Notes under the pieces: model-generated
The model's input: the letters and a program-made list of their open reading frames with translations, nothing else
Told to the model about the DNA's origin: nothing
Databases searched by the model: none
Assembly (NCBI GenBank): GCA_038993745.2
Contig: CP160629.1
Location: forward strand, 1,550,001 to 1,614,000
Origin: Aliivibrio fischeri
GTDB lineage: Bacteria; Pseudomonadota; Gammaproteobacteria; Enterobacterales; Vibrionaceae
Direction: 5' to 3'
Length of the DNA: 64,000 nt
In this document: piece after piece, positions 30,471 to 50,072 of the stretch
Layout of the letters: each line of letters begins with the position of its first letter
Numbering within the stretch: position 1 is the first letter of the stretch
Position numbers and translations under genes: made by a program

Positions 30471-31483
30471 TTAATTGTTATTACTTACGTTTCTCTTTAA
30501 TTGTTCAATTACATATTCAGGCGCTACCTTTGCTAGCTCTTCTAAACAAGCATCTGTTTTTTCATTTCCATAGCGTACATAAATATCACATACTGCATAT
30601 AACTGCTCTGGCGAACCAGAAATTAAATACGCCTTTTCAAACGATTCAGTCGCTAATTTCACATCAATACTTTCTTGTAGAACACCATTCAAATACCAAT
30701 AATAACTATTATTATCCGCTAATGTTGCTGCTGTCTGAATCGATTTAGCGGCGTCTTCTTTTTGATTTAAACGCACTTGAGTTAATGCTTTTGAATAAAA
30801 TAAGCTCGGTTCTTTAGGTAATTGCTTTATACCTTGATTTAGCGTAACTAGCGCTTGTTCATCTTGATTTTGGCCACGGAAATTATCAGATAAATTCAAC
30901 CATACTTCTGCATTTTCAGGTTCGGATTTAACTAATTTTTGATAAATAACATCGGCTTTAGTCCACTCACCATGCCAGCGGTATATGTCTGCTAATTGCA
31001 GTTGAGTATCCTGTCTATTTTGCGATGTTAGAGTATCAACTAACTCTTTATATACAGGTTCCATTTGAACCTGTTGTTCTGCCGTCATAGAACGATATTC
31101 ACGCATTAAATTAATACCAGCAGCGAGACGAACACTCATTTCAGAATCACTCAATAACGGTGAAATCATTCTCCAACGATGAGATAACTTGTATAACTCT
31201 GATCCTGTAATTGCCGCTTCTCGGATAACCGGATTTGGATCTTTTAGCCCTCTAGCGACCGCAACCAAACTGTTTTGGTTAGGAAATCGAGCTAATTGGC
31301 GTAATGCATCTGCTCTATTTTCTATCGTTTCATTTTTATTTTGAGCCCTATACGCTAATTCTTGCTCAGGGCTCATCTTTTGTGCTTGATTCACTGTCGG
31401 AGCTTGCTGAACACTGTCACTAGCAAATGAAGGCGCAGAAAATCCCAATATGGATAACAAACTAATGCAGACTATTTTTTCAT
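30471..31483 (-). pseudogene. Exported HEAT/TPR-repeat protein, haem-less paralogue of the neighbouring cytochrome (start frameshifted)
   Basis: About 337 residues: signal peptide (ISLLSILGFSAPSFA), two HEAT-like repeats (about 55-130) and TPR units (about 170-320). The whole matches, segment by segment, the C-terminal half of the octahaem cytochrome at 41546 (LARFPNQNSLVAVARGLK versus LSAFPSKNTLVALGRAVK; RMISPLLSD versus QIISPLLTD). No CxxCH is present. The best start, ATG at 31483, runs into a stop after two Lys codons. Adding one A to the A6 run at 31475-31480 gives MKKIVCISLL. As written, only a poor upstream start is available. It lies 53 bases downstream of anSME, in the same operon. 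Confidence 0.7.
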
Positions 31484-31536
31484 AAGGTACTCTTAAACGT
31501 ACGATCTTAAAGATTAAATAATTAAAACTTAGATTA

Positions 31537-32851
31537 TTAAAACTTAGTAGGAAAAGCATTTTGGTGAACTTGCTGCATCTTCGCGTCACTGTATTTACCG
31601 TGCTGAACAGGATTCCCTAGCATTTTCAATATATAAGCGATTGATTTATCAGCATGAGCAAAAAACTTCTTCCAACCTGCACACAGATAATTTAATCCTG
31701 GCTCACCATCACGTGTTTTAATAAAACGGTTTTTAGGACATTCACCATGACACGCAAATTTGTATTCACACTTCTGACATTGAGTCGTTAACGTTTTTGA
31801 TTTGGCAAAACCAAACTCTTGTTGCTTTCGGCTAAACGCTAATGTATCCAGCTCTTCATTATGAATATTTCCGATTTTATATTCAGGGTACACATAATGG
31901 TCACAAGCAAACACATCTCCATTGTGTTCCATTGCTAAGCCTTTTCCGCAAATCTCACCTAATGTACATAATGGGTTTTTACGCCCCATCCATGTTTCAA
32001 CACTGGCTTCAAAATACTGAACAAATACTTTACCTAGGTCATGCTGAGTCCATTCATCAAATACAGCAATTAAGAAATTACCCCACGCTTCATCTGAAAC
32101 ACACCAAGGTTCCATAATGGATTCTTTATTACCTGGAATTAAACGTTTATCGCCTTGACGTAACTGTGCTGCAATTTGCTCAGTTTGAGGTGCAACTGTT
32201 CTAAACGTTTTTTGCTCAACGATTGGGATAAACTGCATTTGTGGCGATTTCACCACATCACGTAAGAATCGATATACCTCAAGAGGGTTTCGGCTCGTTA
32301 AATTATTCACACACGTTAACGTGGCAAATTTCACATTATGTTTATGGAGTAATTCAACGGCATTCATCACCTGCTTAAACGTACCGCGCCCCGCTTTGTT
32401 GGTGCGATAAGCATTGTGTAGCATTTCAGGTCCATCAATACTCAAACCAACTAAAAAATTGTTTTCAGCAAGAAACTCACACCATTTATCGGTTAATAAC
32501 GTACCGTTTGTCTGTAAATCATTAGAAATCAAGATCCCTTCAGGCTGATATTTTTTTGAAATTCAACAATTTTTTTAAAGTAATCAAGACCTAATAACGT
32601 CGGTTCACCACCTTGCCATGAGAAGATAATCTCTGGCGTGTTTTGTCCTTCAATATATTGACGAATATAAGTTTCAAGCGTTTCGTCATCCATTTGTGGT
32701 GAACACCCTTTTTATACTCAAGTAAATCTTCTTTACTTAAGTAATAACAATAAGAACAATCAATATTACATACAGCACCAATAGGCTTGGCCATAACATG
32801 TAATCGTTTTGATGCTTTACCTTGAAATTGTGGGCCTTGAGTAATGATCAT
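31537..32851 (-). pseudogene. Anaerobic sulfatase-maturating enzyme (radical SAM, anSME), two frameshifts
   Basis: The intact product would be about 438 residues. It has the radical-SAM cluster CNIDCSYCYY, then FSWQGGEPTLLG, then SPASM-domain cysteines (CTLGEICGKG, CDHYVYP, CQKCEYKFACHGECPKNRF), typical of anSME. These enzymes oxidise the sulfatase active-site Cys or Ser to formylglycine in the cytoplasm. Three Cys-type sulfatases nearby are obvious clients. Two one-base losses break it: at the T5 run 32709-32713 (repair gives KKGCSPQMDDE) and at the T7 run 32551-32557 (repair gives FQKKYQPEGILI). The start at 32851 has a good ribosome binding site. Confidence 0.85.
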
Positions 32852-33052
32852 ATTGATTCCTATTATTTTACGAATTTGGTTAAGTAGAACTTACCTAGCC
32901 AAAGAGAAAACCACCCTTATAGTTTTGCTGCTAAGTAAGTTCTAACTCTATAATAAACAAAAAGAACTACTCTATTAGTTATATACGTTATTCCAATTTG
33001 GAATGTTAAGTTACTGTATGATAAACGTACAAAAATAACTGTTGAGGATGTC

Positions 33053-33846
33053 ATGTTTAACGTCTCTTTTTTACAAAAAACAAAACTTTTTTATCTATTT
33101 CACTCCTCTGCTTTGCTTTATTGGGATGTACAAACACACCTCCACATCCTATCACTCAAAAAATTGAGCAAAACATGGTGTCCGTTCAAGGTGGAGAGTT
33201 TCAAATGGGCTCTAACGCCCCTGAAGCGAAAAAATCCGAAAAGCCAGAACATTCTGTATTTGTTGATGATTTCTATATTTCTAAGTTCGAAGTTACTCAA
33301 GAAATTTTTGAATCAGTAATGGGCTCTTCTCTTAGCTATTTCCAAGATCCTAATGTTCCAGTTAATAACTTAAGCTGGCAGCAGGCTAATTTTTTCATTC
33401 AAAAATTAAATGAGCTGACAGGTGAAACTTATCGACTACCAACCGAAGCTGAATGGGAATACGCTGCTCGTGGAGGAAATTTAAGTAAAGGTTATATCTA
33501 TAGTGGTTCAAACAATATTGATGATGTGGCTTGGTACTCTAAAAACGCCAATAACCGTGCGCATCCAGTTGGAATGAAACAACCAAATGAACTAGGCTTG
33601 TATGATATGACGGGGAACGTTGGTGAGTTTGTAAGTGACGCCTATGATGATAATTTTTATCGCGTTTCACCAAAAAATAACCCTAACAACGCACGTGATG
33701 AAGCAAGTGGTTTAGTACATAAATCAGTTCGCGGCAGTAGCTTTTCTTACGATGCAGATGAATCAGAAAACTATCGACGTGATTTTGCCAGTCAGTCTAT
33801 TATCATGTCGGATATGGGATTACGTTTAGTAAGAGATAAAAACTAA
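33053..33846 (+). pseudogene. SUMF1/FGE-fold lipoprotein lacking catalytic cysteines (frameshifted signal peptide)
   Basis: The ATG at 33053 has a gagg ribosome binding site. Adding one T to the T6 run 33087-33092 gives a lipoprotein signal ending FALLGCTN; unrepaired, the reading frame and signal are separated. The mature part is a formylglycine-generating-enzyme-like domain: VSVQGGEFQMGSN, YRLPTEAEWEYAARGG, ELGLYDMTGNVGEF and a GLRLV end. In true aerobic FGE the end reads GFRC and two Cys bind copper; here the only Cys is the lipobox. It is therefore unlikely to make formylglycine, and a binding or structural role is more likely. It is divergent from anSME. Confidence 0.75.
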
Positions 33847-33888
33847 ACTAACTAAAAGTCTTCATTCAAAATTAATTCTTCACAAATA

Positions 33889-33922
33889 AAAACAGCGCCG
33901 AAAATTCAGCGCTGTTTGTTTA
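33889..33922. terminator. Bidirectional terminator
   Basis: AAACAGCGC / GCGCTGTTT with T-rich flanks on both strands, between the convergent SUMF1-like and LysR genes. Confidence 0.8.
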
Positions 33923-34822
33923 AAAGACATTTTTAGCTGCTTTTTGAATTTGTTGTCGCAACCAACGATGGCCACTATCATTACTTCGACTTGGATGCCA
34001 AATGCTACATAAATCGTGTTGTTGACGATTCAAAGGTAAATCTAAAGATTTCAAATTGTAGTAATCGCCTAAATCATCAATAGATGACTGAGGTAACATC
34101 CCAATCATCTCAGTAGACCCAATAATTGGCATCATTTCAAAGGCACCAGCTGCTCGAATAACAATATTACGAGCTTCTAATTCTCCAATATCTTCAGCAT
34201 TCAATAAGCTGCTTCGGCTATGCCAACGAGACGCGGCAACATGCTCTTCACTTAAGAATTGTTCAAGGCTAATTGAATCCCCTATTCTTGGGTGATCTTT
34301 ACTGCATACGACTCTTAATCTTTCAGTATAAACTACCTCAGATTTTAAAATAGTGCGTCCACGAATAGCCATATCAATCACCAGATCGTAACGCTGTAAA
34401 CGTAAGTCTGACTCTAGATCTTCAGTAAATTGAGGATGTATTTCTAACGAAATATTAGGTGCAGATGAACGAAGCTGTTTCACCAATTTTGGTATTAATG
34501 AATAATTCACCGTAGACACAACCGCAATTGAGAAAATTCGATTGGATGTCTTAGGATCAAATTCTCTTGATGCTGACAACGTAGAAGTAAAATTCTTAAG
34601 TGCTGCAGACATTGCGGGGTAAATATCTGAAGCAAAAACGGTGGGTTCTACTCCCGTCGTATTTCGATGAAAAAGTGCATCATCATAGATTTCTCGTAGA
34701 CGTTTTAATGCTTTACTCACCGCAGGTTGGCTAATATTCATTCTTATTGCCGCCTTTGAGAGGTTTTTCTCTTCATAGATGGCGACAAAAATAGGGATCA
34801 AGTTTAGTTCTGTGCTTTTCAT
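33920..34822 (-). CDS. LysR-family transcriptional regulator (LeuO-like)
   Basis: 300 residues from the ATG at 34822; a GTG at 34834 would add four residues. The N-terminal winged helix-turn-helix (LSKAAIRMNISQPAVSKALK) is followed by a LysR effector domain. The C-terminal SNDSGHRWLRQQI resembles the LeuO/YbeF subgroup. It sits just downstream of the bat operon, on the same strand but with 90 bases between. Nearby promoters carry ATAAC-N5-GTTAT sites of the LysR T-N11-A type, so it is a candidate regulator of the sulfatase-Bat cluster (inference). Confidence 0.82.
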   Translation of the reverse strand: MKSTELNLIPIFVAIYEEKNLSKAAIRMNISQPAVSKALKRLREIYDDALFHRNTTGVEPTVFASDIYPAMSAALKNFTSTLSASREFDPKTSNRIFSIAVVSTVNYSLIPKLVKQLRSSAPNISLEIHPQFTEDLESDLRLQRYDLVIDMAIRGRTILKSEVVYTERLRVVCSKDHPRIGDSISLEQFLSEEHVAASRWHSRSSLLNAEDIGELEARNIVIRAAGAFEMMPIIGSTEMIGMLPQSSIDDLGDYYNLKSLDLPLNRQQHDLCSIWHPSRSNDSGHRWLRQQIQKAAKNVF

Positions 34823-34912
34823 AATAACCGACACGGCTGATTCATCCTGATTTCACTTTATATAACTGAGCAGATGAAACAAGTGCAGTCCATCAGTTCT
34901 GTGTTGATTATC

Positions 34913-36223
34913 TTACTTTTTCGTTTTGCTTATTCGACACTTATTCAGCTGAGGCAAAGCTTTCTTAAATTTAATTATTTCACCTAATTGATATTTGGCT
35001 GTATCTCTACGATTAATTGCTTTCCACAACCGTTTAGATAGTGACATTGTCACCTTTTCATTTTGAAATTGTGTTGTTTCACTCTGCCATTCTTGCTTGC
35101 TTTCATACGCTTTGAGCTCAACGAGATTATCTGTTTCTCTCAATAAACGATAAAGCAGCATTCTAACCGTTCCCCATTCCTCTTGATTTACCGCTCTAGA
35201 ATATACGAGCCATGCAGGAAGTGGATGAGTTTGATAATAACGCAGTGTTTTAATCGCTGCGACAATTAGAATTAGAAGAATGAATACACAAGCTGCGAAT
35301 GGTTTCCAATATTCAATAAACCAAGAACGCAAAGTATGTGATACCGCAAAAGTTTCGCCCTCAATATTAATCGTTTTTAATTCCCCTGCATCAACATCCC
35401 ACCAAACTAGCTCAAGAGCCGGAAACGTAACTTCTCCACCAGTTTGTAATACATAAACTGAAGATTCTTCTCGTTGAGATAAATAGTCACCTCGAGTTTG
35501 TGTATCACTCAATTTAGGTGGTTGATTATAGGTTTGATAGTGCGTGCTTGATGTCGCTGGCAAAATCTCAGGGATCAACATTGCAAGTGTATCAGCCCCT
35601 TTAATCGTAATCGTACGAGTTATCGAATCGCCAGCTTCGAGTTCTGAATTAGACGTATCCCATTTTTGTTGCACGGTAAAATCTAAACCAGACACCCATT
35701 GTTGTTTATCATCAAGTAACCCAGACGGTTTAATTACTTTAAATGTTTGAGCTTGGGTATAAATGGTTCCTGAGACATTACCTACACCTTCTTTTGATAC
35801 TTGCACTTTTACCGCCGTAGGAGGAATAACATAAGTACCTGCTTTTTGAGGATATAATGTCACTTCCCAGCGTTGGTGTGTCCAAGTTACTCCGTTTTTA
35901 CGTTCTGTAAAATTAGTCGCAAGCTGATTACGTTGTTTAACTGCAACGTTGGGAATATCAATTGCAGCAATGCGAGTACCGCCTGTAAACCACCTTGGAG
36001 TAACCACTTCTATATACAAAATAATTTGTTGATTAATGGCATATGCTCTCTGCTCTTCATCTGTTTTTGATGGTTCACTTAACCACGTTTTAATCGAGAC
36101 ATTATCAGCACTTTCAAGTTTGTTCGCTGCATTGGATCTTGCACTAAAACTTACCGTAATAAGCAGTACTATCATAAACACAAGAAGGTGTATTAAACGT
36201 CGTTTATCATTATGCTGAGACAT
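34913..36223 (-). CDS. batD: BatD-like membrane protein
   Basis: 436 residues: signal peptide (about 10-33), a long beta-rich periplasmic region (about 35-305) and one transmembrane helix (FAACVFILLILIVAAI), then a basic cytoplasmic tail. This matches BatD (oxygen-tolerance) proteins in the last position of MoxR-Bat operons. The start overlaps the stop of batB as TAATG, so they are translationally coupled. The Bat complex is thought to assist folding or assembly of periplasmic proteins; its molecular role is not settled. Confidence 0.8.
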   Translation of the reverse strand: MSQHNDKRRLIHLLVFMIVLLITVSFSARSNAANKLESADNVSIKTWLSEPSKTDEEQRAYAINQQIILYIEVVTPRWFTGGTRIAAIDIPNVAVKQRNQLATNFTERKNGVTWTHQRWEVTLYPQKAGTYVIPPTAVKVQVSKEGVGNVSGTIYTQAQTFKVIKPSGLLDDKQQWVSGLDFTVQQKWDTSNSELEAGDSITRTITIKGADTLAMLIPEILPATSSTHYQTYNQPPKLSDTQTRGDYLSQREESSVYVLQTGGEVTFPALELVWWDVDAGELKTINIEGETFAVSHTLRSWFIEYWKPFAACVFILLILIVAAIKTLRYYQTHPLPAWLVYSRAVNQEEWGTVRMLLYRLLRETDNLVELKAYESKQEWQSETTQFQNEKVTMSLSKRLWKAINRRDTAKYQLGEIIKFKKALPQLNKCRISKTKK

Positions 36224-37919
36224 TATTTCACCTCTTCATTTTGCATTTGTGTATTACTTGTTTGTTCACGAAGTTGTAATTGAAACTTGGCACGCAAGAA
36301 ATATTTTGGGTCAGCCTCAACACGACGAAGCCATTTGTCTGCCAACTCTTGACTTCCTAAGATCTCATTTGCATTTAAACTTTCTTTCGTCATTAAAGAA
36401 GAGTCCACTTCTTCATCTGCACCATCACCGGTTCTAGGCTTATCATCACCCAGTTCAAATGACTCTTCTGGGCCATCTGTTGTGCCTTTTTGGCTTTCAC
36501 TCATCCGGTTGACCTCATCAACAATGCCTTGCATGACGTTTAAATTATTCTGCGTTTTTTCTTTTAAATCAGGATCGAGATCTTTCTTTAACAACATACG
36601 ATAGATGTCTCTCGCAGCAACATATTCTCTTTGTCGAGCCAACGCATTTGCAGCATTAAACATTCCTAAATCAGATTTTACAGCAATAAAAGCACTGTGA
36701 GCTAACTTATACTCACCTGCATAATAATACGCAGTACCCTTCATTAATGGGTCTTGATAACTTTTTGCTGCTTTTAAATATTCTGATTTATCAAAATACC
36801 ATTGCCCTTGTTGATCGGGGTTAACCACAAATCCATCCACCAATCTGTCGTTTTTTCCCATAAAGTCACTTCTTTAACAGGTTCTTGAGTTTTCGCTTTT
36901 AAACTTACGGTTTCTGCATACGTTGGCACTGAATAAAATGTAGGGGAAACCAATACCACCACAAAGCACCATTTCACTAACCACCCCTTTCTGAACCATG
37001 ACAACATAAGTAATGAAACAGGAAATAGTAGGTAGTAACCCATGTCTTTCCACGGCATAGCTGATTCATTATTTAATTGCATATGTCGCTCGACTTTACT
37101 GTTTAAGCTACGAACATCGCTATCATCCACAGTAACGCTTATAACGCTTCCACCACTTTTACTTGCTAATTTTTTTAATGAGGCATAATCCATCGGATTG
37201 TCACTCGCTCTGTTTTCATTGCCGGCAGCAAGCACAAGCAGCTGATGACGACTCTTAGAAAAGTATTTCTCATAAGCCGCGATGGTTTCAGGGTTAGCGC
37301 CATCCGTAATTAATAACACGGTTCCCGCACTCTCTGTCCCTAATTGAGGCTCAATGAGTGGTAATGCACTTTCTGCATTCTTCCCTTCTATAGGCATGAT
37401 ATCTGGCTGAATCGCCGCTAAGAATGGCGCAAAAACGGAGTTATCTTTGGTTAACGGCATAGCCAAGTGTGAAGTTCCCGAAAAGACAACAAGCCCTGTT
37501 TTCCCACCTTTACGTAATGCAATCAAATCTCGAATTTTTTGCTTAGAGCGCTCTAATCGATTCGGAGCTAGATCCTTTTGCAACATGGATTCACTATTAT
37601 CTAATACAATAAGCAATGCGGCTTTATCTTCACCAAATGGCGAAGCCTCACGCTCCCATGTAGGACCAGCACAAACCACAATGGCTACGAGCATAGAAAC
37701 AGCCAATAATTTTAGTGGTAGTTGTTTTTTCCAACCAACATCATTGACCGTTAGCACTGAACGAAGGTGTTTTGGTAATTCTTGTTGCCACTCATTTTTA
37801 CTGTCTTGTTTCCAACGTAAATAAATAACAATACTTAATGGAATCAAGGCCAATATCCATAGTGGACGAATAAAATGAAATTCATTGACAATTTGTTGCC
37901 ACATCAGAAGATCAAACAT
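36223..37919 (-). pseudogene. batB: BatB/BatC-like protein: VWA domain with C-terminal TPR, frameshifted
   Basis: The start at 37919 has an aggagaaaagc ribosome binding site and overlaps batA by eight bases. The N-terminal part has two membrane segments and a VWA domain with MIDAS DNSES (VLDNSESM) and a TDGAN loop, followed by another membrane helix. At the G4 run 36817-36820 one base is missing. Adding it joins LWLTP to DQQGQWYFDKSEYLKAAK and continues into a TPR region (BatC-like) and an acidic tail, for about 565 residues. In the given sequence the two halves are separate frames overlapping by 88 bases. Confidence 0.82.
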
Positions 37920-38982
37920 GCTTTTCTCCTGCTTTTTTTGAAGACGATGAAAAATGACGTCTAATAGTGGCGAAACCAAAGGCAAACAAATACATCGCAA
38001 CAATTAGCATTGCTGGGTATTGGTGAATTGACTGCTTTGGTCGGTAAGTCGTACTTTCATAAAGCTGAGGTTCTAACTCACCAATTTCATCATAAGCTTG
38101 TTCTAATTCATCACGGTTAATCGCTTGGAATGCTTTACCTCCAGACTCTTTAGCAACACGATTAATGATGTTCATATCCAATGCTTGTTCACCCACAGTT
38201 CGTGGATCACCCATTGCAATCATATGTATACGCACGCCTTTCGCTGCTGCAACTTTTGCGGCATCAATAGGTTCAACATAACTGCCAGTGTCGTTACCAT
38301 CCGTTAAGACAATCGCGACTTTTTCTCGTGGTTTTGCATTTTCTTCTGCTGACGCTTTATCTTCGCTGCTCTGCTCAAACACTTTAATCGCAAGGCCGAT
38401 AGCGTCACCTAGATGGGTACTTTGCCCTGCCATTGCAACGTCTGTTTGATTCAACAATTCAAGCCAAACGGATTGATCAGCCGTGAATGGCGTTTGTACA
38501 AAGGCGGCATCACCAAATAAAATAAGTCCTAAACGATCCCCTTTACGTGTCTTAACAAAATCGGCTAATACTTCCTTTGTTGCTTCTAGACGTGAAATCT
38601 TCTTTACTGCGCCTGAATCTGATGATTGCTTAGAGACAAAATCTTGCTCAGCCATTGAACCAGATAAATCCACCACAACCATGACATCACGACCTAAACT
38701 TTCACGGGTTTGTGGCTCTCCTAATATCGTAGGCTTTGTTAAAGCAAAAATAAGCAGACACCACGACACAACCAAAAATGTTTTTTGCCATAAACTTGCA
38801 CTTAATTGACTCGCACCTTCTGATGGTTCCTCATCTAACGCTTTAACCAATACATCAAAAAATGGCACTTTAATCGCTGATTGACGTGTTCGATATGCAG
38901 GTATAAACCAATATATTATCAGTGGTAAAGGAAGCATCCATAACCAATATGGATTTGCTAATTCAAGTTGATCAAACGGCAT
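37912..38982 (-). CDS. batA: BatA-like VWA-domain membrane protein
   Basis: 356 residues. Two N-terminal transmembrane segments (about 10-30 and 65-85) precede a VWA domain with a complete MIDAS: DLSGSMAEQD, the Thr of GQSTHLGDAI and LTDGNDTGS. A C-terminal membrane helix (PAMLIVAMYLFAFGFA) follows. The VWA domain faces the periplasm by the usual topology and binds protein partners through a metal. It is intact and overlaps both neighbours (DUF4381 upstream, batB downstream). Confidence 0.88.
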   Translation of the reverse strand: MPFDQLELANPYWLWMLPLPLIIYWFIPAYRTRQSAIKVPFFDVLVKALDEEPSEGASQLSASLWQKTFLVVSWCLLIFALTKPTILGEPQTRESLGRDVMVVVDLSGSMAEQDFVSKQSSDSGAVKKISRLEATKEVLADFVKTRKGDRLGLILFGDAAFVQTPFTADQSVWLELLNQTDVAMAGQSTHLGDAIGLAIKVFEQSSEDKASAEENAKPREKVAIVLTDGNDTGSYVEPIDAAKVAAAKGVRIHMIAMGDPRTVGEQALDMNIINRVAKESGGKAFQAINRDELEQAYDEIGELEPQLYESTTYRPKQSIHQYPAMLIVAMYLFAFGFATIRRHFSSSSKKAGEKHV

Positions 38983-39510
38983 AATCCTCTCCTTTTTTAA
39001 TATCTTGGCTCGCCGTTTTTATATCTTTGTGACTTTCTAACCAATCGATACACAACGCAAATAAGGCTGCAATTTCTTGTTCATTTAATGCTTTTTGTGA
39101 TTGAACTAATGAGCGCATCCATTTTTCACCTAATTCTGAATGAAATGTCTCTTTGTCATCTCTTCCATATGAATCAAGTGCCTTCAAAAAAGTATCTCCA
39201 AATTGATTAGAGCGACTCGGGTCGATATACACTAATACCGCTTTCATCACTTCAAATATTTCATAACTGATAGATTGATTAGGTACTTGTGAATCTCGCA
39301 GTAATAAAATCACATCCAATGCTTCACGACGATAACGATTTGTCCACCATCGTTTTAGCCATAGCACACTTTTGTAGACAATAAATGCAAGCAATACAAA
39401 TGCGAGAATTTTCCATCCAATGGTCTGAGGAAACCAACTGACGTGTTCAGGAACTGTAACTTCACTTAATTTTTTAATATATAACTGCTAGGTGGCTGAT
39501 GTACGCTCAT
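38972..39510 (-). pseudogene. DUF4381 membrane protein, N-terminal frameshift
   Basis: The start at 39510 overlaps the DUF58 stop as ATGA, the normal coupling in this operon. The frame runs MSVHQPPSSYILKN and stops. Adding one A at the A6 run (39470-39475) gives ILKKLSEVTVPEHVSWFPQT, a membrane helix (ILAFVLLAFIVYKSVL) and an uninterrupted cytoplasmic domain to 38972, about 179 residues. DUF4381 proteins occupy this position in MoxR-DUF58-Bat operons and are thought to be a membrane partner of the VWA proteins. Confidence 0.8.
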
Positions 39511-40447: not shown

Positions 40448-40452
40448 AAGCC

Positions 40453-41465: not shown

Positions 41466-41521
41466 GTTTCCTCCTAAACCCGATACGATTCGTTATCCAT
41501 ATTCATTGTAAGTAAATTAAC

Positions 41522-41538: not shown

Positions 41539-41545
41539 CACATCA

Positions 41546-43822
41546 TTAATGGGTGCTCACCTGATTAAGACGTTGGTTTAATGAATTAATCACATTCGCA
41601 GGGGCGTATTTCTGTAGTTCATTAATACATGCTTTTGCTTTATTTGACTGATATTTCAATAACATGTCACATTGTGCGAATAAGTGCTGAGGGTTACCAC
41701 TAATGGTAAAAGCACGCCCCAATGCATCGGCCGCTTGCTTACCATTAAAGGATTCCATTGATAACCCATAAACATACCAATATTGGGCATTTTGTTTTTC
41801 TATCTGAGTCGCTTGCTTAAATCGCTCTGCTGCTTCCGCTTTTTGATTCAAACGTAAAAGTGATAATCCTGCACTATAACGAAGTGCTCCTGAATTAGGT
41901 TGCGCTTTAATGCCCTTTCTTAATATCTCGTATCCCTTATTTTCATTACCTTGAGAACGATATAAATCAGCAAGATTGACGTAACTATTCACAAAATACG
42001 GTTCTATCTCGATTGCGCCTAAATAAGCGTCTTCTGCTTTAGTTAGCTCTCCCTGAGCACGGTACACATTACCTAAGTTTGTTCGACCAAAGCCCCTGTC
42101 AGAATTAAATTTTTGAATCTCGATGTATTCATCTAGTACAGGTGCCAACTGCTCTCTTTGTAATGGATTCAATTCAGGCCAATAAGCCGCTAAAGCGCCT
42201 GCTGTCTCCGTTCTAATCGCTAATACAGGATCGGTTAATAAAGGAGAGATAATTTGCCAACGATCAAATGCCTCATAGCCAGCAGACCCTTGAATGGCTC
42301 CTAGCCTTATTAGCTCATCATTATTTTTAACCGCTCGTCCTAAAGCTACTAAGGTATTTTTACTTGGGAAAGCGCTTAGTCTCTGTAAAGCAGAGCCTCT
42401 GATTATTCCTGCTTGTTTCGCATCTTGAGCGGTATAAGACAATGCATCACCGGCTCCTCTATAATGAATATCTGATGCATAGAATGCCACGGCAAAGTGT
42501 TGTTGGTTTCTATACGGAGAATCAGGAAACCATTGTCCAACTTGCTCGTCAGCCCAAACATCATCTTTATCTTCATGACATTGAGTGCAAACGTTCGGAG
42601 TACCAATGTTCTTGCTAAGATCTGGTCTTGGTATTTGCCAACTGTGATCACGCCTTGCATCAACTCCCATATAAACCGTTTCAGGCATATGGCACGTCGT
42701 ACATTGAGAGGCTTCCGTATTGGCTAAATGAAAGGTGTGTTTCTCTGGTGTGTATTCTGATGCGATATGACATTGACTGCATATTGCTTCTTCTGGGATG
42801 CTTAATTTTGTCGTGTGTGGGTCATGACAATTTGTACATGTCACCCCTTTTTTGGCCATTTTTGACTGCATAAATGAACCATAAACATAATCTTCATCAT
42901 AAATTTGACCATCATTATGATAAAGCTCTGGAGTAATTAGACTTGGAAGGTAGCTATCCAGTAATGAACGCTCCTCGAGATCACCTTTTGTATGCGCTTG
43001 CGCCTCATTTAATTGAGTTCTACGACTATGGCACTGAGCACATACAGTAATTTGATCCGTTTTGTTAATGGCTTTTGGTTGAAGAATGGATGAACCTTGT
43101 TTAAATACCCATTCTTTTACTGACTTACTCAGATCACGATCAAAACCATAATGAAGCCCAATAGAACCCTCTTGCTTTTTACTCCATTTAATATGCTCAC
43201 TCGCAGGGCCATGACACGCTTCACAACTAACATTTATTTCTGACCATGAAGTCTCATAACTATTTTTCTCTGAATCGTAATTTTTTTGTACATTGGTTGA
43301 GTGGCAATCCGCGCACATGAAATTCCAATTTTGTCCTGTATTAGTCCAATAAAATTCGTCGGTTTTTTCCATATCAGGGTATAAATGATACCAACGTTGG
43401 CCACCCTGACTTTTGTGTCTTGAATCCCAAGCAAATGGAATTAATTGAATTCGCCCATCTTCAAATTCAACCATGTATTGTTGTAATGGTTCGAAACCAA
43501 ATGTATAACTAATTTTATAATCATGAAATTGGCCATCAGGCCCTTCAATATTGACCCAATACTCTTTGCCTTTTTTGAAAAAGCGGTTAGTTTTGCCTTC
43601 GAACTCAAAAGTAGCATCATTAAAATCGCCAAATACACTACTTTTATCCGCATGCTTCATCGCCATGTCATGATCCGAACCTTGCCAAGCATCAACGGCT
43701 TCTTTATGACAATCAATACAAGATTCGCTACCAACAAAATCAGCAGAAAATACAGCAGGTGAAAACAACATAATATTCACCCACATTACCAAAAATACGT
43801 AGGTAAGTTTTTTCTTAGCCAT
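41546..43822 (-). CDS. Periplasmic octahaem cytochrome c fused to HEAT and TPR repeats
   Basis: 758 residues. A signal peptide (ending AVFSA) precedes eight CxxCH haem sites (CIDCH, CADCH, CEACH, CAQCH, CTNCH, CSQCH, CTTCH, CTQCH) between residues about 37 and 425. HEAT-like repeats (about 470-570) and TPRs (about 580-740) follow. The haem part resembles the broad cytochrome c554-like multihaem group. The repeats suggest a scaffold contacting other proteins. A haem-less paralogue of the repeat half is encoded at 30471. It lies upstream of moxR on the same strand, with 80 bases between. Substrate and redox partner are unknown. The start has a good aagga ribosome binding site. Confidence 0.85.
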   Translation of the reverse strand: MAKKKLTYVFLVMWVNIMLFSPAVFSADFVGSESCIDCHKEAVDAWQGSDHDMAMKHADKSSVFGDFNDATFEFEGKTNRFFKKGKEYWVNIEGPDGQFHDYKISYTFGFEPLQQYMVEFEDGRIQLIPFAWDSRHKSQGGQRWYHLYPDMEKTDEFYWTNTGQNWNFMCADCHSTNVQKNYDSEKNSYETSWSEINVSCEACHGPASEHIKWSKKQEGSIGLHYGFDRDLSKSVKEWVFKQGSSILQPKAINKTDQITVCAQCHSRRTQLNEAQAHTKGDLEERSLLDSYLPSLITPELYHNDGQIYDEDYVYGSFMQSKMAKKGVTCTNCHDPHTTKLSIPEEAICSQCHIASEYTPEKHTFHLANTEASQCTTCHMPETVYMGVDARRDHSWQIPRPDLSKNIGTPNVCTQCHEDKDDVWADEQVGQWFPDSPYRNQQHFAVAFYASDIHYRGAGDALSYTAQDAKQAGIIRGSALQRLSAFPSKNTLVALGRAVKNNDELIRLGAIQGSAGYEAFDRWQIISPLLTDPVLAIRTETAGALAAYWPELNPLQREQLAPVLDEYIEIQKFNSDRGFGRTNLGNVYRAQGELTKAEDAYLGAIEIEPYFVNSYVNLADLYRSQGNENKGYEILRKGIKAQPNSGALRYSAGLSLLRLNQKAEAAERFKQATQIEKQNAQYWYVYGLSMESFNGKQAADALGRAFTISGNPQHLFAQCDMLLKYQSNKAKACINELQKYAPANVINSLNQRLNQVSTH

Positions 43823-43969
43823 ATATATCCTTATACATTTTGACCATTATTCTGATTTCAAAAGTAAACAAATAACAATGAGTTAGATATAGTTCACTTG
43901 TCGCAAACTTTCCATTTAACTCATTGATATTGCGTGTTCCTTCATAATTTCTATTGCAATACACTTATA

Positions 43970-43995
43970 TAAAAAGGGGCTCCGAAGAGCCCTCT
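43970..43995 (-). terminator. Terminator of the first sulfatase gene
   Basis: On the minus strand GGGCTC-TTC-GGAGCCC is followed by CTTTTTAT, about 30 bases after the sulfatase stop at 44024. The 43823-43969 region upstream of the cytochrome gene holds no ORF. At 43872-43886 it contains ATAACAATGAGTTAG, a one-mismatch version of the LysR-type palindrome. Confidence 0.75.
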
Positions 43996-44023
43996 TAATT
44001 AAGAACTGCCATGATAAATTAAG

Positions 44024-45571
44024 TTACTTACTGTGAGGCTGTTGAAGTTTTTCCATTACCTGATCAAGACTAAAGCTTGCTGCTTTTTGACGAGGTGGGA
44101 ATTCTTCAAATGTTTCTAAATATTTTGCTACATAGGCTTGTGCAGGTACAAACATATAAGCGTGGTCTAGCAACCAATCATAATAAGTATTCGACGTTAC
44201 ATCAGCGACTTCATATGGATCCATACGTAAGTTAAACAGTTTAGGCACACGTAATGTTACAAACGGTTCAGCCCAGATTTGAAGCGTACCCTTCACACGT
44301 TGCTCCATAAATACGGCTTTCCACTTGTTATAACGAAGTGCAGCCAAATCACCATCATCCGTGAAGTAGAAAATTTCTTCACGACGGCCTTCTTTTTCTT
44401 TACCCGTTAAATAAGGTAAGAAGTTATAACCATCTAAGTGATTTTTAAAACTCTTATTACCAAGTTTTGTTCCTTTTTTCAGATCATCTTTAATATGATC
44501 GTTACCAGCAGCTGCTGCAAAAGTTGGTAACCAATCCATGTGGTGCATAATTTCATTCGATACTACACCTGGTTCAATTTTTCCTGGCCAACGAACCATT
44601 GCAGGAACACGATATGCCCCTTCCCAGTTTGTATTTTTCTCACTACGGAACGGTGTTGTACCCGCATCCGGCCATGAGTTCATATGAGGGCCATTATCGG
44701 TAGAATAGAAAACAATGGTGTTATCTTTAATACCTAGTTTATCCACTGTTTTTAAAAGTTCACCAACGTGGTTATCGTGCTCAACCATACCATCAGCATA
44801 GTTACTAATGCCTGTTGAGCCTTGTAATTCAGGTTTTACGTGAGTTCTAAAGTGCATACGAGTTGCGTTCCACCATACAAAGAATGGCTTATCCGCTTTT
44901 ACCGCTCGTCCCATAAAATCAATAGCTGCAGAAACCGTTTCATCATCCACCGTTTCCATGCGTTTACGAGTTAGAGGACCTGTATCTTCAATTTTTCCAT
45001 CAGCAAAAGATTTAATTACACCACGAGGGCCAAATTTTTTACGGAATTCAGGATCTTTTGGATAATCAATATTTTCTGGCTCTTCTTCAGCATTTAGGTG
45101 GTAAAGGTTACCAAAAAATTCGTCAAAGCCATGTGCTGTAGGAAGGAATTCGTCTTTATCACCAAGGTGGTTTTTACCAAATTGCCCTGTCATGTATCCC
45201 ATAGGTTTAAGTACTTCAGCGATCGTTGCATCTTCAGCTTGTAGACCGATATCTGCACCAGGTAATCCAACTTTACTTAGACCTGTACGTAGAACACTTT
45301 GTCCTGTGATAAAAGTTGATCGACCAGCGGTACATGATTGCTCACCATAATAATCAGTAAACATCATGCCTTCTTTAGCAATACTATCGATATTTGGTGT
45401 TTTATATCCCATTAAACCAAAAGTATACGCACTGATATTAGACTGACCGATATCATCGCCCCAAATAACCAGAATATTTGGCTTCTCTGCTGCTAATGTA
45501 TACCCCGAAGCTCCCATTAACACTGCACTTAGTATTGTTAATCTACGCTTCGTTCCTTTTTTGACTTCCAT
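44024..45571 (-). CDS. Exported arylsulfatase-type sulfatase 1
   Basis: 515 residues from the ATG at 45571, which follows aggagtttat; the frame extends upstream to 45655 without a good start. A signal peptide (ending GYTLA) is followed by metal-binding ILVIWGDDIG. The sulfatase signature SCTAGRSTFITG carries the Cys that must become formylglycine (CxAxR, recognised by anSME). GKNHLGDKDEFLP and YSTDNGPHMNSW, the second metal site, follow. It hydrolyses sulfate esters outside the cytoplasm; the substrate is unknown. It is divergent from sulfatase 2, with which it shares most sequence blocks. Confidence 0.9.
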   Translation of the reverse strand: MEVKKGTKRRLTILSAVLMGASGYTLAAEKPNILVIWGDDIGQSNISAYTFGLMGYKTPNIDSIAKEGMMFTDYYGEQSCTAGRSTFITGQSVLRTGLSKVGLPGADIGLQAEDATIAEVLKPMGYMTGQFGKNHLGDKDEFLPTAHGFDEFFGNLYHLNAEEEPENIDYPKDPEFRKKFGPRGVIKSFADGKIEDTGPLTRKRMETVDDETVSAAIDFMGRAVKADKPFFVWWNATRMHFRTHVKPELQGSTGISNYADGMVEHDNHVGELLKTVDKLGIKDNTIVFYSTDNGPHMNSWPDAGTTPFRSEKNTNWEGAYRVPAMVRWPGKIEPGVVSNEIMHHMDWLPTFAAAAGNDHIKDDLKKGTKLGNKSFKNHLDGYNFLPYLTGKEKEGRREEIFYFTDDGDLAALRYNKWKAVFMEQRVKGTLQIWAEPFVTLRVPKLFNLRMDPYEVADVTSNTYYDWLLDHAYMFVPAQAYVAKYLETFEEFPPRQKAASFSLDQVMEKLQQPHSK

Positions 45572-45674
45572 ATAAACTCCTGTTTCCATTGATAAAAAGA
45601 GCATCATTAAAGGTATAGTACATAAACCTAAAACTGACAACGGAATATACAACAATAATTTTACTTTTTAACTA

Positions 45675-45691
45675 CATAACCACTAGTTATG
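45675..45691. promoter_or_regulatory. ATAAC-N5-GTTAT palindrome between divergent sulfatase genes
   Basis: CATAACCACTAGTTATG lies in the 224-base gap between sulfatases 1 and 2, so it could control both. It has LysR-type T-N11-A geometry and flanking bases that extend the dyad. It is the best copy of the shared motif in this cluster. Confidence 0.5.
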
Positions 45692-45795
45692 AACTTAATA
45701 ACCAATTTCAGTACATCGTTTTTTCCGTATTTGCAGGATAATGCAGATCCCTTTCCAATATTATCTAGCTGAAATCATTCCTTCAGGAGATAGCG

Positions 45796-47346
45796 ATGAA
45801 CAAAATAGTAAAAAAAACCGCCATTGCAACAGGCATTGCTTTATCAGGGATCCAAGTAGCTTATGCTGCTGCTCAACCGAATATCCTTGTCATTTTTGGT
45901 GATGATATTGGTTACGGAAACATCTCTGCTTATAACCAAGGTATGCTCGGCTACCAAACGCCAAATATCGATAGCATTGCAAATGATGGAGCCCTTTTTA
46001 CGTCTTATTACGGTCAACAATCTTGTACCGCTGGTCGCTCAGCTTTCATCACTGGTCAAATGCCAGTCCGTACAGGTCTAACTAAAGTTGGATTACCAGG
46101 AGCAAAACAGGGTTTACAAGCACAAGACATCACTCTTGCTCAAACTTTAAAAGACCAAGGTTACGTTACTGGTCAATTTGGTAAAAACCACCTTGGTGAC
46201 CGCGATGACATGCTGCCAACCAACCATGGTTTTGATGAATTTTTTGGTAACCTTTACCACCTAAATGCAGAAGAAGAACCAGAAAACGCAGACTACCCTA
46301 AAGACCCAACCTTCCGTAAAAACTTTGGGCCTCGTGGCGTTATTCATTCATACGCAGATGGAAAAATTGAAGATACAGGTCCTCTAACTCGTAAACGCAT
46401 GGAAACGGTTGATGAAGAAACGATGGATGCGGCGATGGACTTTATGACCAGAGCAGTAAAAGCAGACAAACCTTTCTTCACTTGGTACAACGCAACTCGA
46501 ATGCATATCAAAACTCACGTCAAAGCCGAGAATTCAGGAAAAACCGGACTTGGTGATTATGCAGATGGTATGGTTGAACATGACAACATTGTTGGAGACC
46601 TACTTGATAAAGTCGATGATCTAGGCATCAGTGATAACACTGTCATCATTTACACAACCGATAACGGTCCAATGAATGCGACATGGCCTGATGCGGCCTT
46701 CAGTCCATTCCGTGGTGAGAAAAATACAGGTTGGGAAGGCGGTTTCCGTGTACCTGCAGTCATTAAATGGCCGGGACACATCAAACCTGGCACAAAACTT
46801 AATGGCATGTTTGCTGGTGAAGACTGGTTACCAACACTAACAGCAATCGCTGGTAATAAAGACATTAAGCAAGAGCTACTTAAAGGCTACACAGCGGATA
46901 ATGGCAAAACGTATAAAAACCATCTAGACGGTTATAACCAAGTTAACTACCTAACAGGTAAATCAAAAGAAAGTGCTCGCCAAGAGTTCTTCTACTGGTC
47001 TGATGATGGTGAACTACTGGCTATGCGTGACGGCCGCTGGAAAATGCACTTCAAGATCCAAGAAAACCAAGGTTGGAAAGTATGGACTCGTGAATTTACG
47101 AATCTACGTATTCCTATGATTTTCGATCTACAAGTAGATCCATACGAAAAAGCAGATCAAGGATTTGGATATGATTCATGGGTTTTTGATCATGTATTTT
47201 TGCTAGTCCCTACTCAAGCAAAAGTAGCAAAAATGATTGAAAGCTTTAAAGAGTTCCCACCACGTCAAGAAATTCCAAGCTTCTCTGTCGACAAAGTAAT
47301 GGAACAGATGAAAAACATGGAAAAAGTAGCTAACGCTAGTAAATAA
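45796..47346 (+). CDS. Exported arylsulfatase-type sulfatase 2
   Basis: 516 residues with an aggagatagcg ribosome binding site. A signal peptide (ending VAYA) is followed by ILVIFGDDIGYGNISAYN, the Cys-type signature SCTAGRSAFITG, GKNHLGDRDDMLP and YTTDNGPMNATW. The central DEFFGNLYHLNAEEEPEN block is shared with sulfatases 1 and 3, showing a common origin by local duplication. Activity requires formylglycine formation at the signature Cys by anSME, whose local gene is frameshifted in this sequence. The AraC regulator gene follows after a short hairpin. Confidence 0.92.
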   Translation: MNKIVKKTAIATGIALSGIQVAYAAAQPNILVIFGDDIGYGNISAYNQGMLGYQTPNIDSIANDGALFTSYYGQQSCTAGRSAFITGQMPVRTGLTKVGLPGAKQGLQAQDITLAQTLKDQGYVTGQFGKNHLGDRDDMLPTNHGFDEFFGNLYHLNAEEEPENADYPKDPTFRKNFGPRGVIHSYADGKIEDTGPLTRKRMETVDEETMDAAMDFMTRAVKADKPFFTWYNATRMHIKTHVKAENSGKTGLGDYADGMVEHDNIVGDLLDKVDDLGISDNTVIIYTTDNGPMNATWPDAAFSPFRGEKNTGWEGGFRVPAVIKWPGHIKPGTKLNGMFAGEDWLPTLTAIAGNKDIKQELLKGYTADNGKTYKNHLDGYNQVNYLTGKSKESARQEFFYWSDDGELLAMRDGRWKMHFKIQENQGWKVWTREFTNLRIPMIFDLQVDPYEKADQGFGYDSWVFDHVFLLVPTQAKVAKMIESFKEFPPRQEIPSFSVDKVMEQMKNMEKVANASK

Positions 47347-47359
47347 CATGAATAAGATT

Positions 47360-47384
47360 TAGGGCTCATATGGGCCCTATTTTG
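47360..47384 (+). terminator. Terminator after sulfatase 2
   Basis: TAGGGC / GCCCTA stem with an eight-base loop, followed by TTTTG. It may only partly separate the sulfatase from the AraC gene that starts 30 bases later. Confidence 0.65.
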
Positions 47385-47414
47385 CTATTTATAAGATACA
47401 TAAAGGTGAAACCC

Positions 47415-48320
47415 ATGCAGACAAATGCAGACTTTACATTTGATGAGTTCAGTGAAAAATTATGGTCAATATTTCATGGACAAGCATTGATCACAAAATT
47501 TAGTTTTCCATTAAATGACGCCTGTTTCACGTTTAAATCTCTAAAACGAAATAATGTAAATTTTTACCTATTTGAAAGCCCTGATCCATTATCTTTATTC
47601 AGTTTTCACCTTCCTTCTACATCACAGCCAAAAACATTGTTATTACTCGATGTAGATAATGCTGGAATGCTTTTCAATGGAATTCTATGTGAGGAGCATC
47701 AATTTGCGTTAATTTCAGAAAAAAGCCAGCAACCATTTTGTTTACAAATACCAGCTCACAGCCCTATTTTAGTATGTGATATCAATACCGATAACAAACA
47801 GTTTCATCAACTTTGCGGTAGTTTAGTACCTGTTGGGATAGATATAAAATACGCAGAAGAAATAAAAATTGCCGTTCGTAATGCAAATAATATGTTTCCA
47901 AATAATCATTCCAATGTAGGTGCAACCTTATTGATGCATATTGTTGAGCTTTTATCTTTACATCCAATTCCAATGCGTCGCCAAGCATTAATGGGAAGAA
48001 GTCGTTTACCAAGACGCAATTTTATTCCTAAATGCATTGATTATATGATGGAGATGTCCTCAACTGAGGCAATTAAACAACTCTCCAAAGAACGAAATAT
48101 TTCAGAAAAAACCATTAGAAATGCATTTAAAGAAACAACAGGGTTCACCCCTAAAGAGTTTGAACAAATCAGTAAACTTTTTGCATTTCGTCGGGCCTTA
48201 AAGCAACCAGATATTAAAACTGTTTTTGAAGCAGCTATTGCGAGTGATGTGTATCGCTGGTCTCGTTATGCTAGTCGTTATTTTAAGATTTTTAATGAGT
48301 TACCAATTCAAACTCTTTGA
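47415..48320 (+). CDS. AraC-family transcriptional regulator in the sulfatase cluster
   Basis: 301 residues from the ATG at 47415, with aaggtg upstream; the in-frame start at 47370 lies in the terminator. The N-terminal two-thirds is an effector-type domain without a recognised signature. The C-terminal 100 residues form an AraC double helix-turn-helix (LSKERNISEKTIRNAFKETT then GFTPKEFEQISKL). Its position between two sulfatase genes on the same strand suggests it controls their expression in response to a sulfated compound or its product, which is inference. Confidence 0.8.
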   Translation: MQTNADFTFDEFSEKLWSIFHGQALITKFSFPLNDACFTFKSLKRNNVNFYLFESPDPLSLFSFHLPSTSQPKTLLLLDVDNAGMLFNGILCEEHQFALISEKSQQPFCLQIPAHSPILVCDINTDNKQFHQLCGSLVPVGIDIKYAEEIKIAVRNANNMFPNNHSNVGATLLMHIVELLSLHPIPMRRQALMGRSRLPRRNFIPKCIDYMMEMSSTEAIKQLSKERNISEKTIRNAFKETTGFTPKEFEQISKLFAFRRALKQPDIKTVFEAAIASDVYRWSRYASRYFKIFNELPIQTL

Positions 48321-48400
48321 GAAAGCTCTCAATTCACCTGAGTCACAAGCGTGAACAAATAAAGCAAAATACCTATAGATTCAATAAGATAAATAACAAG

Positions 48401-48415
48401 ATAACTTTTGGTTAT
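48401..48415. promoter_or_regulatory. ATAAC-N5-GTTAT palindrome upstream of sulfatase 3
   Basis: ATAACTTTTGGTTAT, 86 bases before the sulfatase 3 ATG. It is the third full copy of the cluster motif with T-N11-A spacing. Confidence 0.45.
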
Positions 48416-48500
48416 AAAGTCTATAAAGCGACGATTTAAAAATATTTATTTATGATCTCCGCGAATTAAACACGACTATAACTATTATTTGGAGTTATTT

Positions 48501-50072
48501 ATGGGTAATCATTTAAGTAAGATTGCTGTTGGAGTTGGTCTGCTTGCAACCTCTAGTGCAGCAATGGCAGCAGCGCAACCTAACATACTTGCTATTTTTG
48601 GTGATGATGTTGGTTATTGGAACATTAGCGCCTACAACCAAGGAATGATGGGTTATAAAACACCTAACATCGATCGTATCGCGAATGAAGGTGCATTGTT
48701 CACTGATCACTATGGCCAACAATCTTGTACTGCTGGACGTGCTGCTTTCATTACAGGTCAAGAACCTTTCCGTACGGGTCTATTAACCATTGGCATGCCA
48801 GGTTCTGATCATGGTATTCCTGATTGGGCTCCAACCATTGCCGATCTTCTTAAAGATCAAGGCTACATGACGGCACAATTTGGTAAAAACCACCTTGGTG
48901 ACCAAGATAAGCATCTTCCAACTAATCATGGTTTTGACGAATTCTTTGGTAACCTTTACCACCTAAATGCCGAAGAAGAACCAGAAACTTACTACTACCC
49001 TAAAGATCCTGAGTTCCGTAAAAATTATGGCCCACGTGGTGTAATTAAATCTTATGCTGATGGTAAGATTGAAGATACGGGTCCAATGACTCGTAAGCGT
49101 ATGGAGCACGCAGATGAAGAGTTCTTAGATTCTTCACTTGCCTTTATGGAAAAAGCGGTAAAAGCAGATAAACCTTTCTTTATCTGGCACAACACAACTC
49201 GCATGCACGTTTGGACTCGTCTACAAGAAAAATACCAAGGTAAATCAGGCGTAAGTATTTATGCTGATGGTATGCTTGAGCACGATGACCAAGTTGGTAT
49301 CCTACTTGATAAACTGGATGAGCTTGGTATAGCTGATAACACGATCGTTATATATTCAACCGATAACGGTGCAGAAACAGTAACATGGCCTGACGGCGGT
49401 GCTACACCATTCTATGGTGAAAAAGGCACAACATGGGAAGGTGGTATGCGTGTACCACAACTTGTTCGTTGGCCGGGAACTATTAAACCTGGAACAAAAA
49501 TCAATGAAATGATGGCGCACCAAGATTGGCTTCCAACTTTACTTGATGCTGCTGGTGTTCCAAACGTAAAAGAAAAACTTGCTAAAGGCTATAAAGCCAA
49601 CGGTAAAGAGTTCAAAGTTCATATCGATGGTTACGATTTCAAACCATTCTTTGAAGGAAAAGTAGATAAAGGTCCTCGTGAATCACTGCTTTACTTCACT
49701 GCAAATGGTGAGTTGAATGCCGTTCGCTGGCAAGATTGGAAACTGAACTTCGCAATAATGGAAGGTAATATTTCTGATGCAGTTCGTTTGTCACCAAACT
49801 GGCCTCAAATCATCCACCTACGTGCGGACCCATTTGAAAAAGCACCGCATGAATCAGGCATGTACTTACGTTGGATGGCAGATAACATGTGGTTATTCGT
49901 ACCAATGCAAGACGTATTAGCGGAGTTCTTTAATACTCTACCTGATTACCCAATGCAAATGAGTACTCAAATGAACCCTGCAGCTATCAGTGCACAATCA
50001 CTTGGCTTAAAAGCGAAAATGCAACAGCTAGATAAGCTTCAAGCTCAAATGAATAAACTAAATGCTAAATAG
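48501..50072 (+). CDS. Exported arylsulfatase-type sulfatase 3
   Basis: 523 residues from the ATG at 48501, preceded by ttggag. A signal peptide (ending AAMA) is followed by ILAIFGDDVGYWNISAYN, the signature SCTAGRAAFITG with the modifiable Cys, GKNHLGDQDKHLP, and YSTDNGAETVTW. Compared with sulfatases 1 and 2 it has a distinct C-terminus with helical AKMQQLDKLQAQMNKLN. It has its own promoter region and a strong terminator. Its substrate may differ from that of its paralogues. Confidence 0.92.
   Translation: MGNHLSKIAVGVGLLATSSAAMAAAQPNILAIFGDDVGYWNISAYNQGMMGYKTPNIDRIANEGALFTDHYGQQSCTAGRAAFITGQEPFRTGLLTIGMPGSDHGIPDWAPTIADLLKDQGYMTAQFGKNHLGDQDKHLPTNHGFDEFFGNLYHLNAEEEPETYYYPKDPEFRKNYGPRGVIKSYADGKIEDTGPMTRKRMEHADEEFLDSSLAFMEKAVKADKPFFIWHNTTRMHVWTRLQEKYQGKSGVSIYADGMLEHDDQVGILLDKLDELGIADNTIVIYSTDNGAETVTWPDGGATPFYGEKGTTWEGGMRVPQLVRWPGTIKPGTKINEMMAHQDWLPTLLDAAGVPNVKEKLAKGYKANGKEFKVHIDGYDFKPFFEGKVDKGPRESLLYFTANGELNAVRWQDWKLNFAIMEGNISDAVRLSPNWPQIIHLRADPFEKAPHESGMYLRWMADNMWLFVPMQDVLAEFFNTLPDYPMQMSTQMNPAAISAQSLGLKAKMQQLDKLQAQMNKLNAK

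Follow-up and report, generated by a model that had tools for sequence, protein, structure and literature searches.

Type I sulfatases reach full activity only with formylglycine (FGly), which is known to be produced by two unrelated enzymes: FGE, which uses oxygen and copper, and anSME, which is a radical S-adenosylmethionine (SAM) enzyme. The conversion of cysteine to FGly is a two-electron oxidation followed by hydrolysis, with the release of sulfide. A further prokaryotic route of sulfatase maturation was reportedly proposed by Benjdia et al. in 2007 (FEBS Lett). Among systems which combine a MoxR ATPase with VWA proteins, the mxa genes around methanol dehydrogenase serve Ca insertion. PMC6189696 calls the machinery of the further prokaryotic route elusive and describes an unmodified Cys sulfatase, a choline sulfatase, which can be slowly active. 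Additional maturation routes may exist. Here we analysed a window (the whole stretch of DNA examined, 64,000 nucleotides) of Aliivibrio fischeri in which three sulfatase genes, a gene for anSME and a set of MoxR-Bat genes surround the gene for an octahaem c-type cytochrome with HEAT/TPR repeats. This cytochrome is best explained as a dedicated partner of exported FGly sulfatases across families. No multihaem cytochrome or MoxR-Bat system tied to sulfatase activation was found in open PMC titles and abstracts, outside which most subscription papers lie.

Sulfatase genes beside the cytochrome

The cytochrome gene (window positions 41546–43822, − strand) is intact and encodes a protein of 758 amino acids, which shares 97% identity with a protein assigned by name to A. 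fischeri. It has a beta domain, haem motifs of the CXXCH type numbering exactly eight, and HEAT/TPR repeats in its C-terminal half. The cytochrome gene is adjoined on the same strand by the gene for a secreted Cys-type sulfatase, S1 (44024–45655, −), and two further genes for secreted Cys-type sulfatases, S2 (45796–47346, +) and S3 (48489–50072, +), are found in the cluster. All three sulfatase genes are intact, and their products score over the Pfam cut-off for PF00884 and carry CTAGR, which identifies them as type I (formylglycine) sulfatases.

We scanned genome contigs with a cytochrome profile, found at least 402 relatives and kept the best 80 loci, many of which are contigs of metagenome-assembled genomes (MAGs) with short flanks. 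Haem motifs of nearly fixed spacing across these loci define the family well: eight CXXCH were found in 78 of the 80 (in L042 across three frames) and seven in L048 and L057, the latter of which ends at a contig end. Using one all-sulfatase profile, a sulfatase was found within 5 kb of the cytochrome in 29 of the 48 loci flanked by 4 kb or more on each side and in 37 of the 80 overall. Cytochrome-adjacent sulfatases were present in Vibrio, Photobacterium, Pseudovibrio, Bradyrhizobium, Microbulbifer and Marinobacterium, and in MAGs of Thiotrichales, Nitrospirota and Gemmatimonadetes. By a loose pattern, the nucleophile in sulfatase frames within 5 kb was Cys in 45, Ser in 2 and unclear in 6. 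The neighbouring sulfatases have the motif types CTAGR, CSPTR, CTPSR and CTPGR, with about nine changes between CTAGR and the other types on the cytochrome tree (FastTree, many weak forks). The linkage of cytochrome and sulfatase exceeds chance, as it recurs in other families and phyla.

Two further arrangements were seen in these loci. In L044 (1566–2756) a HAD-type hydrolase (PF12710) is encoded between sulfatase and cytochrome, and this open reading frame family occurs in 11 of the 80 loci. In Vibrio owensii (L022:13060–14694) a Ser-type (STAGR) sulfatase gene lies directly beside anSME within a cytochrome/Bat cluster, a single case which agrees with a role of anSME in maturing Ser-type sulfatases in that species.

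To avoid the bias of starting from the cytochrome, we also examined an even draw of 249 Pseudomonadota genomes (≥ 97% complete), calling sulfatases with profile A3 at E ≤ 1e−40 and the cytochrome with profile A2 at E ≤ 1e−60; sulfatase counts per genome are lower bounds, with at most 6 candidates scored. These profile searches found sulfatases in 81 genomes, the cytochrome in 27 and anSME in 14, while PF03781 was matched at E ≤ 1e−60 in 56. Sulfatases were found in 26 of the 27 cytochrome genomes vs 55 of the 222 without cytochrome (P = 1.8e−13). A sulfatase lay within about 10 kb of the cytochrome in 19 of the 27 vs about 2 expected, the expectation being an upper bound as it was computed from all first-look candidates.

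Complementarity with FGE and anSME

S1-type sulfatases, defined by a best A3 match of E < 1e−150 (the next genome is at 4e−130), were found in 38 genomes of the even draw, including 10 with anSME, 16 with an FGE-type match, none with both and 12 with neither. The cytochrome was present in all 12 of the S1-type genomes with neither maturase vs 9 of the 26 with one (P = 2e−4), and in 8/8 vs 3/11 (P = 0.003) when each distinct state was counted once per family. The 12 maturase-less genomes fall in eight families and CTAGR sulfatases were read in each of them; their over-cut-off PF03781 matches are motif-free and score no higher than 108 bits with the FGE profile described below, and their best anSME score is 112 bits vs a cut-off of 349. 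In G215, which is one contig, there is no PF03781 and no anSME match, and a CTAGR sulfatase, the cytochrome and MoxR-Bat genes form one cluster. When all sulfatase genomes were considered, the cytochrome was found in 14 of the 25 without a known maturase vs 12 of the 56 with one (P = 0.004), counting G171 as FGE; before that re-count the figures were 15/26 vs 11/55 (P = 0.0018). Judged by this distribution across genomes, the cytochrome may be able to replace anSME or FGE.

FGE was first called at PF03781 E ≤ 1e−60, and G123, G206 and G266 were later moved to FGE after rechecks, while G171 was re-counted because it carries the FGE fragment L294. The catalytic motif of FGE, which we take to be a cysteine pair (C....C) mostly followed by RYR, was read directly, and a profile was made from motif-bearing FGEs. 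All 42 sequences which score at least 288 bits on this profile have the cysteine pair, 37 as strict C....C.RYR and 5 as variants; below 288 bits the 155-residue fragment L294 scores 195 and everything else at most 139. Among the 16 S1-type genomes assigned an FGE, the cysteine pair was read in 15, the remaining one being G117 with 219 bits.

We also tested the genomes of 50 of the 80 cytochrome loci, which were hand-picked (34 with a sulfatase match in the locus and 16 without). anSME scored over its cut-off in 16 of these 50 genomes and not in 34. PF03781 proteins were present in 46, with the FGE cysteine motif in 9 of the 30 fetched matches, all of them high-scoring. Neither anSME nor a recognised FGE was found in 26 of the 50, part of whose PF03781 matches were read. 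No PF03781 match at all was found in Shewanella gaetbuli and S. fidelis, the latter of which has a CTAGR sulfatase (L151).

Putative role of the cytochrome and rival explanations

A search of the PDB with the whole-protein model listed TPR-type proteins, and the haem domain was therefore modelled separately. The predicted structure of the haem domain folded alone appears similar to those of OcwA and MccA, whose haem 2 is an active site. It should be noted that Foldseek with the isolated haem domain gave no match at E ≤ 0.001 and that OcwA, 6qvm and MccA came up only in VIA realignment of the haem-domain model, with sequence support alongside. The only invariant cysteines in 50 sequences are those of the haem motifs. 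We rejected the cytochrome as MccA proper on the basis of this pattern and of its eight plain CXXCH, and as OcwA proper because it has eight haems, not nine. Most of the genomes with the cytochrome carry a single copy.

We consider it a real possibility, at somewhat under even chances, that the octahaem HEAT/TPR cytochrome is a periplasmic sulfatase-activating oxidase which provides a third FGly route beside FGE and anSME. With slightly more reserve, we suggest that such a route may be a haem-based periplasmic system in which the sulfatase Cys is oxidised after export and the electrons go to the respiratory chain, not to O2 or SAM. Cys-type sulfatases would be exported to the periplasm, where the HEAT/TPR arm would grip the sulfatase client and the active-site cysteine would bind to, or come near, the putatively open haem 2; two electrons would run along the haem chain to periplasmic acceptors and the thioaldehyde would hydrolyse to FGly, with neither O2 nor SAM required. 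An open haem in an octahaem wire, near a possible client arm and in the compartment of the sulfatases, is a plausible catalyst. MoxR-Bat, where present, may be an accessory chaperone of the cytochrome or the sulfatase, for example by loading metal into one of them, since cofactors are inserted by MoxR-VWA pairs such as NorQ/NorD (PMC9976466). In Aliivibrio and Vibrio the cytochrome would work alongside anSME, with the latter serving Ser-type sulfatases too. An activator would account more readily than a substrate-specific respiratory enzyme for the repeat arm, for a gene which is mostly single-copy, for sulfatase partners which change and for the complementarity.

Bat genes are rarer than sulfatases around the cytochrome. 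They were found in 14 of the 80 cytochrome loci and were not seen in the other 66, some of whose stretches are short, and their presence changes state about four times on the cytochrome tree. Of the 14 Bat-bearing loci, 10 also have a sulfatase within 5 kb, and among the 18 even-draw genomes for which the cytochrome surroundings were fetched (the cytochrome of one, G147, is the same as that of locus L072) Bat genes lie within about 10 kb in 5, with a sulfatase too in 4 of these. In Pseudovibrio stylochi the sole PF00884 match of the genome adjoins the cytochrome and Bat genes. The proposal of an initial annotation of this window that sulfatases, cytochrome and MoxR-Bat form one module is borne out by these counts, in which the three recur together, as is its reading as a sulfatase module, with the emphasis on the cytochrome and not on Bat. 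The annotation took anSME as the activator of the sulfatases and the cytochrome as a possible client of Bat. Bat as the core was rejected, given the 66 loci in which no Bat was seen and a cytochrome which itself tracks sulfatases. Sulfatase and cytochrome are thus the wide pair and Bat is a recurrent addition, perhaps a dispensable accessory. The annotation had named relatives with the sulfatases far from the Bat and cytochrome genes as the contrary finding, and this holds in some relatives only: in three Vibrio loci (L016, L026 and L042) Bat and cytochrome are found with no sulfatase within the available stretch, and the closest sulfatase listed for G221 lies some 95 kb away from the cytochrome. 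A Sulfurovum MAG (L079) has cytochrome and Bat, with no sulfatase in its 8-kb stretch.

Several points weigh against a role of the cytochrome in sulfatase activation. The FGly-forming activity is one which we infer from phyletic and neighbourhood evidence. In the even draw, G065 has the cytochrome with no sulfatase at E ≤ 1e−40, 8 of the 27 cytochrome genomes showed no sulfatase within about 10 kb, and 3 of the 27 have two cytochromes. There are also 11 sulfatase genomes in which these searches found neither maturase nor cytochrome; the sulfatases of these genomes are less closely related to S1, and the three genomes which were read have CSATR (G089 and G157) or no usual motif (G190). FGE or anSME is present as well in 9 of the 21 S1-type cytochrome genomes, so that the cytochrome may have a separate job, and the co-occurrence was computed for this one multihaem family, so that habitat or genome size may contribute to it. 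We know of no cytochrome of this kind in E. coli, in which it was not searched for. According to PMC6189696, the machinery with which E. coli converts the cysteine of Cys sulfatases to FGly has yet to be identified; taken together, these two points make a further system likely.

Such a separate job could be redox catalysis or electron transfer during the degradation of sulfated compounds, by a cytochrome which is co-inherited with the sulfatases and not needed for their activation. We regard this as unlikely, although it is the rival to be taken most seriously: it has in its favour the apparent fold kinship to MccA and OcwA, both of which have reductase activity, and the S1-type carriers with a known maturase. 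The targets might be the desulfated product or a sulfur oxyanion, as for MccA on sulfite; however, sulfatases yield sulfate, not sulfite, the motif type of the neighbouring sulfatases switches repeatedly with mostly one cytochrome per genome, and the complementarity with FGE and anSME is not predicted. It is distinctly improbable that the cytochrome only marks a lifestyle, that of marine or soil bacteria whose large genomes hold many cytochromes and sulfatases, while another maturase, perhaps that of E. coli, acts in the genomes which lack FGE and anSME. The unidentified E. coli machinery and co-occurrence figures from a single multihaem family would both be accommodated by this explanation, but not the adjacency of 19 of 27 vs about 2 expected, nor the presence of the cytochrome in 12 of 12 maturase-less genomes from eight families.

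We place a similarly low probability on MoxR-Bat being the part which matures the sulfatases, by loading their metal ion, with the cytochrome as another client. Sulfatases do bind a divalent metal, and Bat is found beside cytochrome and sulfatase in several lineages, with the changes of state given above. NorQ/NorD are essential for FeB insertion (PMC9976466), and mxaR, S, A, C, K and L stand next to mxaF in a gene table (PMC6414531). Against this explanation, in addition to the 66 loci, no Bat was seen near the cytochrome in 13 of the 18 even-draw genomes, and in this window the Bat genes are broken and the sulfatases intact. A chance or lineage-specific collection of genes without functional unity is very improbable. 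The three Vibrio loci with no sulfatase in the available stretch speak for it, but it was rejected and is already largely refuted, since Gammaproteobacteria, Alphaproteobacteria and other phyla (MAGs) show these neighbours again and adjacency in the even draw is above expectation.

The cytochrome is a widespread candidate for the third route, with natural hosts in which it is expected to act in the absence of both FGE and anSME. If the activating role is true, the cytochrome would represent a third class of enzymes which activate sulfatases, present in many Proteobacteria and in other phyla (MAG records), and would account for the Cys-type sulfatases of bacteria in which FGE and anSME are both missing. 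It would also bear on bacterial glycan desulfation, on sulfatase production and on the aldehyde tag in protein engineering. If it is wrong, an octahaem enzyme of MccA/OcwA fold which follows sulfatase genes across families still wants explaining.

Gene content, frameshifts and comparison with described systems

The cluster is a sulfatase module with its weight on the cytochrome. It is a real feature, although some of its genes are broken in the sequence at hand, which comes from a genome of 4.35 Mb in two contigs. In comparison with A. sifiae, in which the counterparts are single open frames, six shifts fall in five genes at 31537–41474. Two are in anSME (31537–32875, −; frames 32875–32705, 32711–32553 and 32556–31540), a piece of which (31537–32532, 331 residues) scores 363.7 bits vs the TIGR03942 cut-off of 349.45 and is thereby identified as anSME. 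One each is found in the genes for the MoxR AAA+ ATPase (40456–41474, −; 41474–40944 and 40947–40456), the DUF58 protein (39507–40480, −; two frames as sequenced), the DUF4381 protein (38972–39567, −; 39567–39472 and 39478–38984) and the VWA_B/TPR protein, BatB-like and BatE-like (36223–38003, −; two overlapping frames vs one frame of 596 residues in A. sifiae). The genes for the BatA-like VWA protein, VWA_A (37912–38982, −), and BatD (34913–36223, −) match A. sifiae in one frame, as do those for the LysR-type regulator, the SUMF1-like protein, the cytochrome paralogue, the cytochrome, the three sulfatases and the AraC-type regulator, and all the remaining A. sifiae-matched genes of the window are likewise unshifted. 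Five of the six shifts, all but that in the DUF4381 gene, were inspected: three coincide with or lie close to stretches of five to seven A, and no such stretch was seen near the MoxR and DUF58 shifts. The concentration of shifts in one stretch hints at real decay, with sequencing error as the other explanation.

The second contig has two more anSME-type genes, one full-length and open and the other covering positions 55–362 only, with an internal stop; the anSME protein search gave no relative above 86% identity among the matches listed. More islands with sulfatase and SPASM-domain genes were seen on that genome's contig C2 (G000; 241–249 kb, 1089–1091 kb and 1181–1198 kb), and a PF00884 gene is seemingly split in two frames at G000:C1:1907139–1907890. 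Another broken copy is seen in Vibrio maritimus, with the cytochrome (L042:9869–12194) in three frames and MoxR in two.

A SUMF1-fold lipoprotein (33121–33846, +) matches FGE structures among others, but its single Cys is in an N-terminal LGC, a lipobox by inspection. It lacks the FGE cysteine pair, is therefore not FGE, and was rejected as a second maturase. The haem-less HEAT/TPR paralogue (30471–31589, −) was identified by sequence comparison with the C-terminal half of the cytochrome, to which it is 35% identical over 293 residues. The two regulators are LysR-type (33920–34834, −) and AraC-type (47370–48320, +), the latter with HTH_18 below the Pfam cut-off and EutR as best NCBIfam relative. 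The initial annotation was thus right about the three Cys-type sulfatases, the multihaem cytochrome with protein-binding repeats, its paralogue and the two regulators, and about the SUMF1 fold of the lipoprotein. The gene types of its full six-gene MoxR-Bat operon (MoxR AAA+, DUF58, VWA proteins and BatD) and its maturase are all present, but neither operon nor maturase is intact as sequenced, because four genes of the former and the latter are split over different frames. Downstream of the cluster, a dinitrogenase iron-molybdenum cofactor-type protein (PF02579) is encoded at 51266–51706.

The described MoxR-VWA cofactor-insertion systems, NorQ/NorD and mxaRSACKL, likewise place a MoxR AAA+ with DUF58/VWA proteins beside a redox enzyme, whereas the MoxR-Bat genes of this window lie beside sulfatases and an octahaem cytochrome, and were not seen in 66 of the 80 cytochrome loci. 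anSME (TIGR03942) serves sulfatases and has its gene beside them, as does the broken copy here, but it belongs to the radical SAM iron-sulfur enzymes and does not resemble the cytochrome. FGE/SUMF1 (PF03781 with C....C) makes FGly from the sulfatase cysteine and differs in fold from the cytochrome, while sharing its fold with the SUMF1-fold protein of the window, which is without the FGE cysteines. OcwA (6i5b) is a nonahaem terminal reductase of the Gram-positive cell surface with two open sites, and on our reading of the alignment its haem 5 has no counterpart among the eight haems of the cytochrome. The octahaem sulfite reductase MccA has an unusual CX15CH haem motif and copper-binding cysteines, which we take to be its hallmarks; the cytochrome described here has neither, and is set apart from MccA by its C-terminal HEAT/TPR arm and its linkage to sulfatases.

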